From contig JAFAXE010000203.1 in assembly GCA_019241305.1 (NCBI GenBank), positions 1 to 39,305 on the forward strand: 39,305 nt of DNA. The letters run 5' to 3'. This document shows, in pieces, positions 4,961 to 8,999 of the stretch (position 1 is the first letter of the stretch; the number at the start of each line of letters is the position of its first letter). Position numbers and translations under genes: made by a program. The notes under the pieces were generated by a model. That model did not search any database, was not told the origin of the DNA, and saw only the letters and a program-made list of their open reading frames with translations. The stretch comes from Vulcanimicrobiota bacterium (lineage in GTDB: Bacteria; Vulcanimicrobiota; Vulcanimicrobiia; Vulcanimicrobiales; Vulcanimicrobiaceae).

Positions 4961-5071
4961 TCAGGCGCACCCCAGGCGTGGTCCCCAACCGTGAAACTGA
5001 CCTTCTGCCTTGGGGAGACGAATGGTCGGCCGGGCTTCCTCGATCGTACGGGCTTTGTGAAGGTTCGTCAT
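4961..5071 (-). CDS. candidate 36-residue peptide with Trp-rich, Cys-containing C-terminus
   Basis: A small ORF read from ATG 5071 to TGA 4961. It begins MTNLHKARTIEEARP and ends GQFHGWGPRLGCA. A Shine-Dalgarno-like AAAGGGA lies about 9 bases before the ATG. It sits 54 bases after the secreted pentapeptide-repeat gene in the same direction and fills an otherwise empty gap. The first half is charged and leader-like. The second half is Gly/aromatic-rich with one Cys next to the last residue. There is no signal peptide and no family I recognise. It could be a signalling or modified peptide, a small binding partner of the CxGC-containing proteins upstream, or a chance ORF. No peptide-modification enzyme is visible in the window. 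Its stop is 6 bases from the convergent helicase stop. Confidence 0.4.
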   Translation of the reverse strand: MTNLHKARTIEEARPTIRLPKAEGQFHGWGPRLGCA

Positions 5072-5125
5072 GTCGTTGTCCCTTTCGCTGTTATCTAGCA
5101 GTGAACTGATGCGGATGTTTCAGAT

Positions 5126-5977
5126 TTAGAGGAGGACGCCGGAGAGGTTGGCATGCGCCAGCGTGCGCAATTCGTCTGCCGTTACGGGGCGGCAGTCCCG
5201 GAAATCGCCTTCGCCAGAGTGACAAAATCGTGCGCCGCGCAAATCGGCATCCCGTAGGTTCGCGCCCGCGAAGTCGGTGCAGCGCGTTTCGCCTTCGATG
5301 CGTGAGCCGTCGTTCTCGGTGATGCTGGGGACGCACAGAATTGCATTGCGAAAAAGCGCCGACTGCAGTGTCGCGTTGCGAAAATCTGCGCCAACCAACA
5401 CTGCATCGGTGAAGTCGGTATGCCGGCCGTCGGCTCTGCGAAACGTCGTTCCGATCAGCCGTGCTCGCAGGAAGCGGGAATTGGTGATATCGCTACCGTT
5501 GAGGTCGACGCCGGTGAATCGTACGTCAGAAAGGTCTCGGCCGCGAAGCGCGATGTCGCGCAGGTCGCAGCCCGTGCACGAACGCATGACCCCTCGCAAA
5601 CCCCCGAGGCTATCGATGGTGGCTTGGTTCAGGCGGACGCCGACCAACTCGACTCCGCTCAAATTCGCGCCCGAAAACGTTGCGCCGGTGAGGGCGCTTC
5701 CCGTGAACTTGGCATTCGTCAAGTTGGCGTTGTCGAAGTTCGCCTCACGCAGATTGACGCCGGTGAAGTGCGTGTCATGCAAGTCGGCGCCGCGGAGGTC
5801 GGCGCGCTCGAGGTTCGCGCCGACGAGCTCGATTCCGTGAAGATCGCGACCGCGCAGGTCGACGCCGTGCAAGTCGCATCCGACGCAGTGCGCAAGCAAC
5901 TCGCGCGGAACCGGGTACGCGAGCGCGACGCTGGTCACAGAGACCATGACGAGAAGGATGAGGGCCAGTCGCAGCAT
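5126..5977 (-). CDS. secreted pentapeptide-repeat protein with two CxGCDL blocks
   Basis: A 283-residue protein with a signal peptide (MLRLALILLVMVSVTSVALA, cleavage near residue 20-22), then two blocks of A(D/N)LxG-type pentapeptide repeats, expected to form a right-handed quadrilateral beta-helix. Each block opens with C-x-G-C-D-L (C31/C34 and C134/C137). The start at 5977 is set by AGGAG 6 bases upstream; the longer frame to 6094 lacks such a site and would bury the signal peptide. The C-terminal part (about residue 200 on) is less regular, with further Cys residues that may form disulfides. The layout matches the C-terminal domain of the adjacent M56 protein, including the 103-residue spacing between CxGC motifs, so the two are paralogues. 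Function unknown; it is probably periplasmic or secreted and related to the sensor next door. Confidence 0.85.
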   Translation of the reverse strand: MLRLALILLVMVSVTSVALAYPVPRELLAHCVGCDLHGVDLRGRDLHGIELVGANLERADLRGADLHDTHFTGVNLREANFDNANLTNAKFTGSALTGATFSGANLSGVELVGVRLNQATIDSLGGLRGVMRSCTGCDLRDIALRGRDLSDVRFTGVDLNGSDITNSRFLRARLIGTTFRRADGRHTDFTDAVLVGADFRNATLQSALFRNAILCVPSITENDGSRIEGETRCTDFAGANLRDADLRGARFCHSGEGDFRDCRPVTADELRTLAHANLSGVLL

Positions 5978-6010
5978 CGTATCTCCTATTTCTTTAAGAG
6001 TTGAGGGTAC

Positions 6011-6030
6011 AAAAAAAATCGCGGAAGCGA
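6011..6030 (-). terminator. intrinsic terminator or attenuator between the M56 gene and the secreted repeat gene
   Basis: On the minus strand TCGC-TTCC-GCGA (6030-6019) forms a short hairpin with a tetraloop and is followed directly by eight T (6018-6011). The 4-bp stem is weak but the U-tract is strong, which suggests partial termination and so lower expression of the two downstream genes. It is the only long T-run noticed in the minus-strand operon. Confidence 0.5.
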
Positions 6031-6044
6031 CAGGAAGGCCATTG

Positions 6045-8546
6045 TCAGCGCGACAGCGTCGTTCCGGAGAGCCGGATGCCTTCGAGACGAGCACCGTTCA
6101 GTGAAGCGCCGCTTAAGTTACAACCGGATAGCGTGGCGTTGCGCAGGTCGGCGTGGTCCAGGTTCGCCGACTCGAAGTTGACGCCGGAAAACCGAGCTCC
6201 GCTCAAATTCGCGTTGCGCAAATTGGTGCCATTGAAGTCTGCTCCCGAGAGCGAGATACCGTGGAGGTCGATTCCTCGCAAATCCATATCGGAAAGGTCG
6301 CACCCGCTGCAACCGCGCAGCAGGATTTCGCGGACCCCAGCGGCGTCGAAGCCTGCCTCGTTCAGCGCGATGCCGACGAACCGCACGCCTTCCATCTTTG
6401 CGCCACGGAAGATTGCGCCGGAGATGTTGGCGCCGCTGAAGTCGGCGGCGCTGAGGTCGGCGCCCTCAAAATTCACTTTCGAGAGGTCGTCGCCGACGAG
6501 CCGCGCGCCGTGCAGGTTGGCACCGCGCAAATCGGCGCCCTCCAAATCCGCGCCTTCGAGCGACACGCCGTGGAGATCGACGTTGCGGAGATTGCGATGG
6601 GACAGATCGCATCCGGTGCACTTCGCAATGAGGGTGCGTGTGAGCGCCGCATCCGCGGTGGAGGCTGTTGCGGCGTCAGCCTGGGCTTCGGCGCGCGCTT
6701 CCGCGGCGGCGGCCTTGGCAACAGCGGACCGCGACATGGCGATGTGTTCCGACGGAACGTGCACGTGGACCGGTGGGACGCGGACGTCGATTGCCGGTAC
6801 GTGCACATCGACCTGCGGTACATGCACGTCGACCATCGGTACGTGGACATCCAGGTTTACGCCGTCCGCGCCCGGTATGCCGCGCGCCCCATCAACAGGG
6901 CGAATGGTCGTGTTCGTTGTCGTCGGCGTCCTGGCGTTGGTTGTGGCGACCGTGCGGGGCCGCTGGACGGCTCGCTCGGGTGCGGGTGCCGTCACCGGCC
7001 GCTCGGCATTCGAAGACGGTGGCGCCGCCGCGACGTCTCCCTGCACGCTTGGGGTGCGTGCGAAATCTGAGCGCAGCCGCAGGCTCGCGTCGAGTGCCGC
7101 GGCGCTACGCTCGAGCGCGGCGATACGCTGCTGCAAGACATGGAAATGGCCTTCGCGCGCCATGCGGGCCATCAGGGTCAGCTTGTCGCGCAGCACCTTC
7201 ATTTCACCCTGCAGTTTCGTGATGCGATCCGGCGACGAGCTCGCGCCCGGCGCGTCTGCAGCTGCTGCAACATCGGTGAGTCGCGATGAAACGAACCCGG
7301 ACAGCGACGTGAGGGCGAGGATCGTTTGATCTGCCGTACGAGCCGTAGAATTGCGGACGTTATCGTCGAAGGCGTGCCAACTCACCGTACGTGAACCCGC
7401 AGAGCCGGCGTCGCTCGACGCGCTGGGCGCGGCTGCAGGGAGCAACAACGGAGGTGCCGCGACGGCGACGAGCGCGTATGAAACCAGCGCCAAGGCGAGA
7501 ACCCCTGCGGCACTGGCAGGACCGAGATGACGCAAATGGGTGCGGCCGGGTGCCAGCAACGCTTCGATACGGATCGAGATTTGTTTACGGGTGAACAGGG
7601 CGCCGGGTGCCACGACCGTATAGGCGGGCATCCGCATCTCGCGCGCTAAACGCCACAACTGATCCGCGTAGCGGGTGCGGTCGCTGGTCCGCTCCACAAC
7701 CGCGTCGTCCGCAGCGATTTCTCGCTCGAGCGCGATACGGCGTCCGGCGAACCACACGAACGGATTGAACCAAAACGTGCGCTCGATGACCCGTTGAATC
7801 AGGTTGGTGTAGTCGTCGTAGCGGCGCAGATGGGCGTGTTCGTGGATGACGAGGTCCTCGATCGCCGCAAGACCGCTCTTGGTCGCCAGTTCGGTGGGGA
7901 TCAGGATGACCGGCCGCGAGAATCCAATGGCGACCGGCGCCTCGATCTCATATGAAAGCCGGAGATACGTTTCGCGGCCCCGATGCGTTTCGGTAAGCCA
8001 CGGCAGGTCGCCAGAAAGCGTTTCGTCGAGCGGGCTGGAGCGGCGCTTCACCGCTCCGATTTGGGCCACGCTGAGCGCGAGCAGAACGAGTCCCGTCAGC
8101 GCGACGCCGGCCAGCGCTGCGAGCGCAATCAGGGATGCCGCCCATGCGACCTTCCCAAGCGCTCCGAGCGCGGTCTGCGGGGACGTCGTGACCGTGGTCC
8201 CTCGCGTCCGCTGTGGTACGGCGTGACTCGTTATGGCGGTTTGGTGACGGCTGGGCGCTGACAGCGAACGAACGTCGGAGGCGGCCGAGCGCGAACGCAG
8301 CGTGTGCGCCGCGCCGGGTAGAACAGCGGCGATGCTGCTTCCGGGTTGCACGCGGCGCGCGATGCTGGCTCCGATCCCCGCGAGCGGCAGTAATGCCATT
8401 GCGACGATCGTGGCCAGCCAGAGCGCGTGACGCGTGGATGCGTCGAACGTCCGCAGTCGCAGCAGCAGTACGACGCCGCCGACGAGGAGGCCCGAGGCGG
8501 CAACCGACGCCACGAGTGCCGTCAAGACGACGATCGACACATTCAC
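6045..8546 (-). CDS. M56 (BlaR1/MecR1-type) membrane metalloprotease fused to a pentapeptide-repeat sensor domain
   Basis: An 833-residue integral membrane zinc protease. Hydrophobic helices at about 4-29, 40-63, 133-162 and 342-370 flank the M56 catalytic part. The zinc motif is HEHAH at 235-239 with E276 in REIAADD as likely third ligand. In BlaR1 the last helix leads to a penicillin-binding sensor. Here it is followed by a predicted coiled coil (about 440-497), five VDVHVP-like heptads (about 564-598), an Ala/Glu-rich helix and, from residue 643, a pentapeptide-repeat domain in two blocks opened by CTGCDL (C643/C646) and CSGCDL (C746/C749). No SxxK/KTG penicillin-binding motifs are present. 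The GTG start overlaps the blaI stop (GTGA), indicating coupled translation. By family analogy it would transmit an external signal by proteolysis leading to loss of BlaI. The stimulus is unknown; the repeat domain argues against a beta-lactam. Confidence 0.88.
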   Translation of the reverse strand: MNVSIVVLTALVASVAASGLLVGGVVLLLRLRTFDASTRHALWLATIVAMALLPLAGIGASIARRVQPGSSIAAVLPGAAHTLRSRSAASDVRSLSAPSRHQTAITSHAVPQRTRGTTVTTSPQTALGALGKVAWAASLIALAALAGVALTGLVLLALSVAQIGAVKRRSSPLDETLSGDLPWLTETHRGRETYLRLSYEIEAPVAIGFSRPVILIPTELATKSGLAAIEDLVIHEHAHLRRYDDYTNLIQRVIERTFWFNPFVWFAGRRIALEREIAADDAVVERTSDRTRYADQLWRLAREMRMPAYTVVAPGALFTRKQISIRIEALLAPGRTHLRHLGPASAAGVLALALVSYALVAVAAPPLLLPAAAPSASSDAGSAGSRTVSWHAFDDNVRNSTARTADQTILALTSLSGFVSSRLTDVAAAADAPGASSSPDRITKLQGEMKVLRDKLTLMARMAREGHFHVLQQRIAALERSAAALDASLRLRSDFARTPSVQGDVAAAPPSSNAERPVTAPAPERAVQRPRTVATTNARTPTTTNTTIRPVDGARGIPGADGVNLDVHVPMVDVHVPQVDVHVPAIDVRVPPVHVHVPSEHIAMSRSAVAKAAAAEARAEAQADAATASTADAALTRTLIAKCTGCDLSHRNLRNVDLHGVSLEGADLEGADLRGANLHGARLVGDDLSKVNFEGADLSAADFSGANISGAIFRGAKMEGVRFVGIALNEAGFDAAGVREILLRGCSGCDLSDMDLRGIDLHGISLSGADFNGTNLRNANLSGARFSGVNFESANLDHADLRNATLSGCNLSGASLNGARLEGIRLSGTTLSR
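6754..6858 (-). repeat. five tandem 21-bp units encoding VDVHVP-like heptads
   Basis: Units start at 6754, 6775, 6796, 6817 and 6838, each 21 bp and each beginning GG(A/T/G)AC on the plus strand. They lie inside the M56 gene and encode heptads such as VDVHVPM, VDVHVPQ and IDVRVPP. Alternating Val with regular Pro suggests an extended stalk or beta-strand linker between the membrane protease and the repeat domain. The unit number may vary between strains. Confidence 0.8.
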
Positions 8547-8941
8547 GGCCGCTCGCTTTGTCCCGGCCGGCGCGCGGCGTCGATGATATCGCGAAGACGA
8601 TCGAGTTCGGAGGCGTCGACTTGTTCAGACTCGATGAGGTTCAGGACCAGCTCGCCCGGTGAGTTGTTGAAGAAACGTGAGACGACGTGTTGGACGACGT
8701 CGCGCTGCGCATCCTCACGTTCGATTGCGGGCCGATAGATGAAGGCTCGCCCGCTGGCCTTGTGCCGGACGTAGCCCTTCTGCTCGAGGATTTGCAGCGT
8801 CGTGAGGACCGTGTTGTAGGCCAGCGGCGGCTCGCCAACCGCGTCGACCACCTCCCCGACGGTCCTCGGCCCCTTCGACCACAGGATGTCCATCAGGCGG
8901 TACTCGGCCTCCGTGAGCGTGGGGGACTTCTTCCGTGCCAT
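8543..8941 (-). CDS. blaI: BlaI/MecI-family transcriptional repressor
   Basis: A 132-residue winged-helix repressor of typical family length. The N-terminal DNA-binding domain (about 8-80) contains LTEAEYRLMDILW, TVGEVVDAV and the recognition region AYNTVLTTLQILEQKGYV. The C-terminal part (about 85-130) is the helical dimerisation region with FFNNSPGELVLNLIE. In the bla/mec systems such repressors bind operator dyads as dimers and are lost after the M56 partner is activated. It is the first gene of the minus-strand operon and overlaps the M56 gene by 4 bases. A TTGACA box and an AT-rich island lie just upstream. It probably represses its own operon and possibly the divergent ligase gene. Confidence 0.92.
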   Translation of the reverse strand: MARKKSPTLTEAEYRLMDILWSKGPRTVGEVVDAVGEPPLAYNTVLTTLQILEQKGYVRHKASGRAFIYRPAIEREDAQRDVVQHVVSRFFNNSPGELVLNLIESEQVDASELDRLRDIIDAARRPGQSERP

Positions 8942-8947
8942 GCGGCC

Positions 8948-8977
8948 ACCGTATCATCGGTGCCGGGCCGCTGTCAA
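8948..8977 (-). promoter_or_regulatory. candidate blaI promoter
   Basis: On the minus strand TTGACA (8977-8972), 18 bases, then TACGGT (8953-8948). The -35 matches the sigma-70-type consensus exactly; the -10 keeps only TA---T. Transcription would start at or next to the blaI ATG (8941), giving a leaderless or near-leaderless mRNA. A GGTGG immediately upstream could alternatively act as a ribosome site if transcription starts earlier. Confidence 0.4.
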
Positions 8978-8999
8978 CTATTTAATTAAGAGAATGGCA
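8972..8999. promoter_or_regulatory. candidate BlaI operator between divergent genes
   Basis: An AT-rich island centred on TTAATTAA (8982-8989) inside GC-rich sequence. The outer arms TGTCA (8972-8976) and TGGCA (8995-8999) give an imperfect dyad with about 8 of 14 positions symmetric. It overlaps the blaI -35 box and the first codons of the divergent ligase gene at its upstream start. Assignment to BlaI rests on position only. Confidence 0.35.

Follow-up and report, generated by a model that had tools for sequence, protein, structure and literature searches.

A BlaI/M56 operon with a pentapeptide-repeat receptor

We analyzed a 39,305-nucleotide (nt) stretch of DNA (contig JAFAXE010000203.1, hereafter the window) from a member of the Vulcanimicrobiota (formerly Eremiobacterota), soil bacteria, which belongs to the same family as Vulcanimicrobium alpinum. 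The window carries on its minus strand a BlaI-type repressor gene, a gene for an M56 metalloprotease receptor that ends in pentapeptide repeats, a gene for a secreted pentapeptide protein, and an open reading frame (ORF) of 36 amino acids (aa). The repressor gene (blaI; 8543-8941, 132 aa) and the receptor gene (6045-8546; 833 aa, GTG start) overlap by 4 bases, the gene for the secreted protein (5126-5977; 283 aa, ATG start) follows after 67 bases, and the 36-aa ORF (4961-5071), which ends in FHGWGPRLGCA, after another 54. An earlier note on this DNA had reported this order and spacing, which the coordinates confirm, and a span of 4961-8941, which holds for the genes and not for the start of the unit; the operator and promoter at 8972-8994 extend it upstream of blaI, so that it covers 4961-8994.

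The repressor has the winged-helix Penicillinase_R domain across its whole length (PF03965, 1.7e-34; residues 9-121, model 1-114/115), and the CopY/TcrY and BlaI models of NCBIfam hit it below their cut-offs. In the receptor, the M56 domain (PF05569, 8.9e-34, aa 19-330) contains the HEXXH motif as HEHAH at aa 235, between the third and fourth of four transmembrane (TM) helices called by hydropathy (aa 11-29, 44-62, 139-157, and 346-364), and the chain of Staphylococcus aureus BlaR1 solved by cryo-electron microscopy aligns with aa 163-288 (E = 4.8e-6). Beyond the fourth helix lie a helical, proline-rich stalk (about aa 390-630 in the secondary structure of an AlphaFold2 [AF2] model) and, in the C-terminal 190 aa, a pentapeptide-repeat domain (PF00805, 6.5e-56; 6045-6660), whose two blocks open with CTGCDL (aa 643) and CSGCDL (aa 746), 103 residues apart. 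Within the stalk, positions 6660-6870 of the window encode DVHVP-type repeats (VDVHVPQVDVHVPAIDVRVPPVHVHVP), and about half of the other receptors have similar stalks rich in VP or HVP.

The penicillin-binding sensor of BlaR1 and MecR1 is missing from this position. No SxxK was found past residue 365 and no KTG or KSG in the C-terminal domain, the sole K-T/S-G string of the receptor being at residue 223, within the protease domain; the NCBIfam BlaR1 model scores 62 against a cut-off of 400. The absence of these motifs from the sensor, and the two-block pentapeptide beta-helix with CxGCDL in their place, had been proposed in the earlier note and are borne out by the motif and Pfam checks. Because this defining sensor was tested for and is absent, the receptor, which would act like BlaR1/BlaI, is no BlaR1 beta-lactam receptor. 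BlaR1 has both termini outside the cytoplasm (PMC9834060). By homology, the repeats, which follow the fourth predicted TM helix, are predicted to be extracytoplasmic, on the opposite side from the HEXXH domain; the cytoplasmic placement that the earlier note had named as fatal to its proposal is not what the prediction gives.

Conservation and distribution

Relatives were examined in a set of 60 genomes and, phylum-wide, in 149 (genomes, contigs, and loci carry G, C, and L numbers below, G000 being the source genome). The fusion of M56 to pentapeptide repeats occurs in 28 genomes from 26 genera of the smaller set, with blaI adjacent in all 28 and HExxH retained in every receptor. Two CxxC motifs lie 102-103 residues apart in 24 of the 28; in the other four the second motif has another position, is absent, or falls outside the contig, and it is lost or shifted in some receptors, including those of L119, L124, and L106. 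A further cysteine (Cys) stands about 60 residues past the second motif. This conserved adjacency, whose lack in related genomes the earlier note had also named as a refutation, supports, together with the predicted topology, its description of a BlaI/M56 signalling operon in which a pentapeptide domain takes the sensor position. In 17 loci a secreted protein with a C-terminal four-Cys module is encoded.

Among the 149 genomes, the fused form is concentrated in the family of the window and one further family of the class. A scan of named genomes by exact peptide patterns, which was not exhaustive, turned up only M56-domain relatives in other phyla: of 80 such loci, 76 had blaI nearby and not one had the fusion, which argues for a restricted distribution of the fusion. 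Other M56 proteins of the phylum carry tails of different kinds, helical repeats among them. In G017, the M56 receptor at the syntenic locus (L112:5625-7925) has a DUF2807 (GIN head) domain in place of the pentapeptides and is preceded by a DUF4097-like gene that itself follows an operator. L109:13321-16025, L111:13443-16066, and L136 contain a second BlaI/M56 pair without pentapeptides; it has helical repeats, and its operator is a different one (ACCTAATTAttTAGGT). Two large tandem pentapeptide proteins (700 and 406 aa) are encoded at L133:3537-6870 (G024:C8), with no M56 gene nearby.

The secreted protein and its four-cysteine cap

The secreted protein of the window has an N-terminal hydrophobic signal sequence, pentapeptide repeats (PF00805, 7e-42), and a C-terminal module which, in the alignment of the 17 loci, ends the protein and contains four invariant Cys. 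Its AF2 model is a quadrilateral beta-helix with a predicted local distance difference test (pLDDT) score of 76.5, and its best fold match in the PDB is HetL (3du1, E = 1.9e-11). The pentapeptide-repeat fold, with its A(D/N)LxX repeats, is thus assigned by both PF00805 matches, the AF2 model, and the Foldseek match to HetL, while the NCBIfam equivalog models for Qnr/MfpA score 38-68 bits against cut-offs of 240-500.

Because the four-Cys module is its own, is conserved, and is missing from most receptors, the secreted protein is, judged from its sequence, a distinct family and more than a free copy of the sensor domain, as which it had been described. In genus g43 the same cap module forms the C-terminal end of the receptor (independent E-values of 6.8e-29 in G045, 6e-27 in G048, and 7.4e-30 in G050), and none of these three genomes has a separate gene for a cap protein. 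Four genomes without a pentapeptide receptor were tested for the module, and none gave a match. The fusion pattern moderately favors a physical interaction between receptor and partner, and the earlier suggestion that the secreted protein completes the sensor is plausible on these two grounds once its premise of a free copy is given up.

Operator and candidate regulon

As is typical of BlaI and MecI, the repressor gene has a palindromic operator in its own promoter at the sequence level. The predicted operator of the window, TTCTCTTAATTAAATAGTTGACA (8972-8994, minus strand), contains the -35 hexamer TTGACA, and the 17-bp spacer and a probable -10 element, ATACGG, follow at 8949-8971. A dyad of the form [AC]T[TA]A-A-N4-(A/T)TAGTTGACA overlaps the -35 hexamer upstream of blaI in 27 loci; at L115 it is a perfect 24-bp palindrome, and many loci have a further copy close to the start codon. 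A consensus promoter scanner made no call at the blaI promoter. An inverted repeat over the -10 element of the window, CACCG-N6-CGGTG, was dropped as an operator candidate, being unseen in relatives, unlike the conserved dyad, and matches to CTTACGAGGTTAGTTGAC in many genomes were set aside since they resemble a conserved tRNA-type sequence.

Only three zero-mismatch operator sites occur in the source genome, and for the stricter pattern the control gave none. One is at blaI of the window and another precedes a DUF5916 gene on C185; the third, on C167, is double (L170:1510-1610, G000) and faces a short ORF of about 43 aa, with katG (catalase-peroxidase) divergent. Operators also precede DUF5916 genes in other genera (G033, twice, and G048), and phylum-wide a high-scoring operator was found at 10 of 29 DUF5916 genes compared with 3.9% of random stretches (P ~8e-8). 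A DUF5916 gene adjoins the cassette in 13 loci and lies downstream on the same strand in 12 of them. DUF5916 proteins look like outer-membrane barrels, and their N-terminal part is CBM9-like (PF06452, 8e-5 in one protein, just under the cut-off). The operator targets that were examined included no beta-lactamase gene.

Directly upstream of the secreted-protein gene, the window has an internal operator-like site, CTCTTAAAGAAATAGGAG (5983-6000, minus strand), and similar sites lie close to its start in L104 and L106; the pattern matches 2% of random 250-nt stretches. A double operator was also observed at L203:3077 (G009:C1), upstream of a 58-aa ORF with a signal-peptide-like N terminus.

A phylum-wide family of GWGP peptides

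The window has 388 ORFs of 36 aa or longer, so length alone cannot separate the 36-aa ORF from chance. Its sequence is conserved: profile searches found it in other genera, with E-values from 1e-10 to 1e-19, within a phylum-wide family of peptides that end in F-x-GWGP-(R/K), with F-x-GWGP invariant. Matches with E <1e-9 came from nine genomes and weaker ones from many more. The motif codons differ between members in their third positions, and for most members a plausible ribosome site was seen. By this conservation the ORF is a real gene of the family. No NCBIfam model matched the peptides, and no obvious TM segment was seen in them. They are encoded beside BlaI/M56 genes, directly downstream of a double BlaI operator (G011), and downstream of a DUF5916 gene (G024). 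The small peptide of the earlier note is therefore real and conserved, and it is not specific to the operon, as the wider family also occurs away from BlaI and M56.

In the window, the cassette lies between a gene for an SNF2 helicase, which is convergent, and an acyl-CoA-ligase-like gene, which is divergent. At L247 (G007:C144:5414-5518), the ligase/SNF2 locus that corresponds to it, the GWGP peptide alone remains, BlaI and M56 being absent. The ligase/SNF2 locus L208 (G014:C37:86000-92000) has, besides a GWGP peptide and an NHL-like gene on the opposite strand, a blaI that stands alone and has an operator, the full cassette of G014 being on C32. At L253, L254, L257, L266, and L269 (~1500-2000 in each), a GWGP peptide is the first ORF of operons for a YtrA-like GntR regulator and an ATP-binding cassette (ABC) transporter, with a palindromic promoter element (TTGTACTAGTgcACTAGTACAACAGTA-like).

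Proposed mechanism and alternatives

With moderate confidence, we favor a BlaR1/BlaI-type derepression switch with a pentapeptide sensor, a secreted partner, and a DUF5916 regulon; its BlaR1-like part is well supported. BlaI dimers on the palindrome over the -35 hexamer would repress the operon together with a small regulon. The receptor would be an inner-membrane protein whose predicted zinc protease faces the cytoplasm and whose pentapeptide rod, borne on a long stalk, lies in the periplasm, and the secreted protein would bind this rod, most likely end to end, to provide the missing four-Cys C-terminal cap. A change in the envelope may then alter the assembly of rod and partner and activate the protease, which, as its homology with BlaR1 suggests, would cleave BlaI. 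Cleavage would yield more receptor and partner in a positive feedback and could induce outer-membrane-type DUF5916 proteins as well as, in some genomes, peptides of the GWGP family.

The signal is probably an extracytoplasmic envelope stress. We favor an envelope signal because of the DUF2807 sensor swap in G017, the exported targets, and DUF4097-like neighbors, which lie upstream of blaI in G003, G030, and G017 and beside the peptide in G016 and G022 (only the G016 gene matches the Pfam model). A paper on the phage-shock-protein (PSP) envelope-stress response deals with DUF4097 ('Toastrack') (PMC11237479). Vulcanimicrobium alpinum WC8-2 has a typical Gram-negative envelope (PMC9758169), so exported products could reach the periplasm or the outer membrane. 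A bolder version, possible and in our judgment rather doubtful, is a split-solenoid receptor in which an open-ended helix is closed by a diffusible secreted cap, capping and uncapping being the switch for BlaI cleavage, class-wide and with a DUF5916 and GWGP regulon.

Several results weigh against the favored model. Five genomes (G003, G005, G036, G011, and G035) have the receptor and no cap protein, so the partner is not always needed and is not obligatory, and the cap fusion of g43 may be a single event. A detectable operator stands at only 10 of the 29 scored DUF5916 genes, and a PMC literature search found no paper on DUF5916. In the AF2 model of the receptor, the repeats have pLDDT values of mostly 65-87; the whole chain, modeled poorly from a single sequence, has only 51.

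The same five genomes, in which the secreted protein is dispensable, also suit a different explanation, which we think fairly unlikely: the secreted protein may be an output that the switch induces, either a surface protein or one that protects the envelope, and its likeness to the receptor domain may reflect nothing but descent from it. Its gene comes third, often before that of DUF5916, another exported product, and operator-like sites lie just upstream of it in the window, L104, and L106. The cap module fused onto the g43 receptor without a separate copy, and the absence of the cap protein from the tested receptor-less genomes, speak for a partner. Less likely again is a regulator of resistance to beta-lactams or other cell-wall antibiotics, whose rod would sense the drug or released wall fragments; it fits the BlaI/M56 homology and the GWGP peptides that lead GntR-ABC operons resembling ytrGABCDEF of Bacillus subtilis, and is opposed by the sensor without penicillin-binding motifs and by the lack of beta-lactamase genes among the examined targets.

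Redox or metal sensing, one idea of the earlier note, in which the protease would be gated by disulfides or bound metal at the CxGC pairs, appears improbable. The fixed spacing of the two CxxC motifs in nearly all receptors, the later Cys, the four invariant cap Cys, and the operator between a small ORF and divergent katG would suit it; the Cys may merely staple the ends of the solenoid, the motif being at the start of a block, where a cap is expected, and L119, L124, and L106 are among the receptors in which the second motif is lost or shifted. That unrelated genes lie together by chance has a negligible probability: neighbors do differ between genera, and conservation, with adjacency in 28 of 28 loci, a common operator, and fused forms, refutes it.

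Comparison with known systems

To our knowledge, many bacterial M56/BlaI pairs have no known signal. Searches of the PMC literature, including wider ones on M56/BlaI, found no paper that combines M56/BlaI with a pentapeptide sensor, in agreement with the earlier note, which knew of no described system with this combination. New here are the -35 palindrome, its recurrence at DUF5916 genes, the distinct secreted family with its cap, and the GWGP peptide family. For one lineage-wide M56/BlaI type, the sensor fold is thereby defined, and an operator, candidate targets, and a candidate partner can be named; a conserved family of tiny proteins also comes to light that two regulatory systems have in common. 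If the model is true, pentapeptide repeats gain a role in transmembrane sensing; the split solenoid, if true, would be a class-wide envelope-sensing system of the Vulcanimicrobiota with its own DUF5916 regulon. The cassette is present in the cultivated species V. alpinum WC8-2, at about 1,358,700-1,362,900 of the chromosome, which makes the question testable.

Like BlaR1/BlaI and MecR1/MecI of S. aureus, this system pairs a repressor with an adjacent M56 receptor that has four TM helices, the HEXXH motif, and a C-terminal domain predicted to be extracytoplasmic, and it has an operator in the promoter. The sensor differs, being a pentapeptide beta-helix rather than a class D beta-lactamase-like domain, as do the secreted partner, the DUF5916 targets, and the operator, which is of the form CTWA-N6-TAGTTGAC here and of the TACA/TGTA type in staphylococci. 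HetL, Qnr/MfpA, Rfr proteins, and the repeats of DotG have the same fold by profile and model; here, in contrast, the repeats belong either to a signalling protease, as a fused domain, or to a secreted protein whose C-terminal module has four Cys.

Mycobacterium tuberculosis BlaR/BlaI (Rv1846c) likewise has an M56 receptor without a penicillin-binding sensor and a regulon that extends beyond beta-lactamase (PMC9834060, PMC8265638); its BlaR has no equivalent sensor domain, whereas in the system described here the sensor is a defined solenoid that has a candidate partner. The order of small ORF, GntR repressor, and ABC transporter in the GWGP-led operons resembles that of B. subtilis ytrGABCDEF, which is induced by inhibitors of the lipid II cycle (PMC12772383), although YtrG is a small transmembrane protein, whereas no TM segment is obvious in the GWGP peptides.

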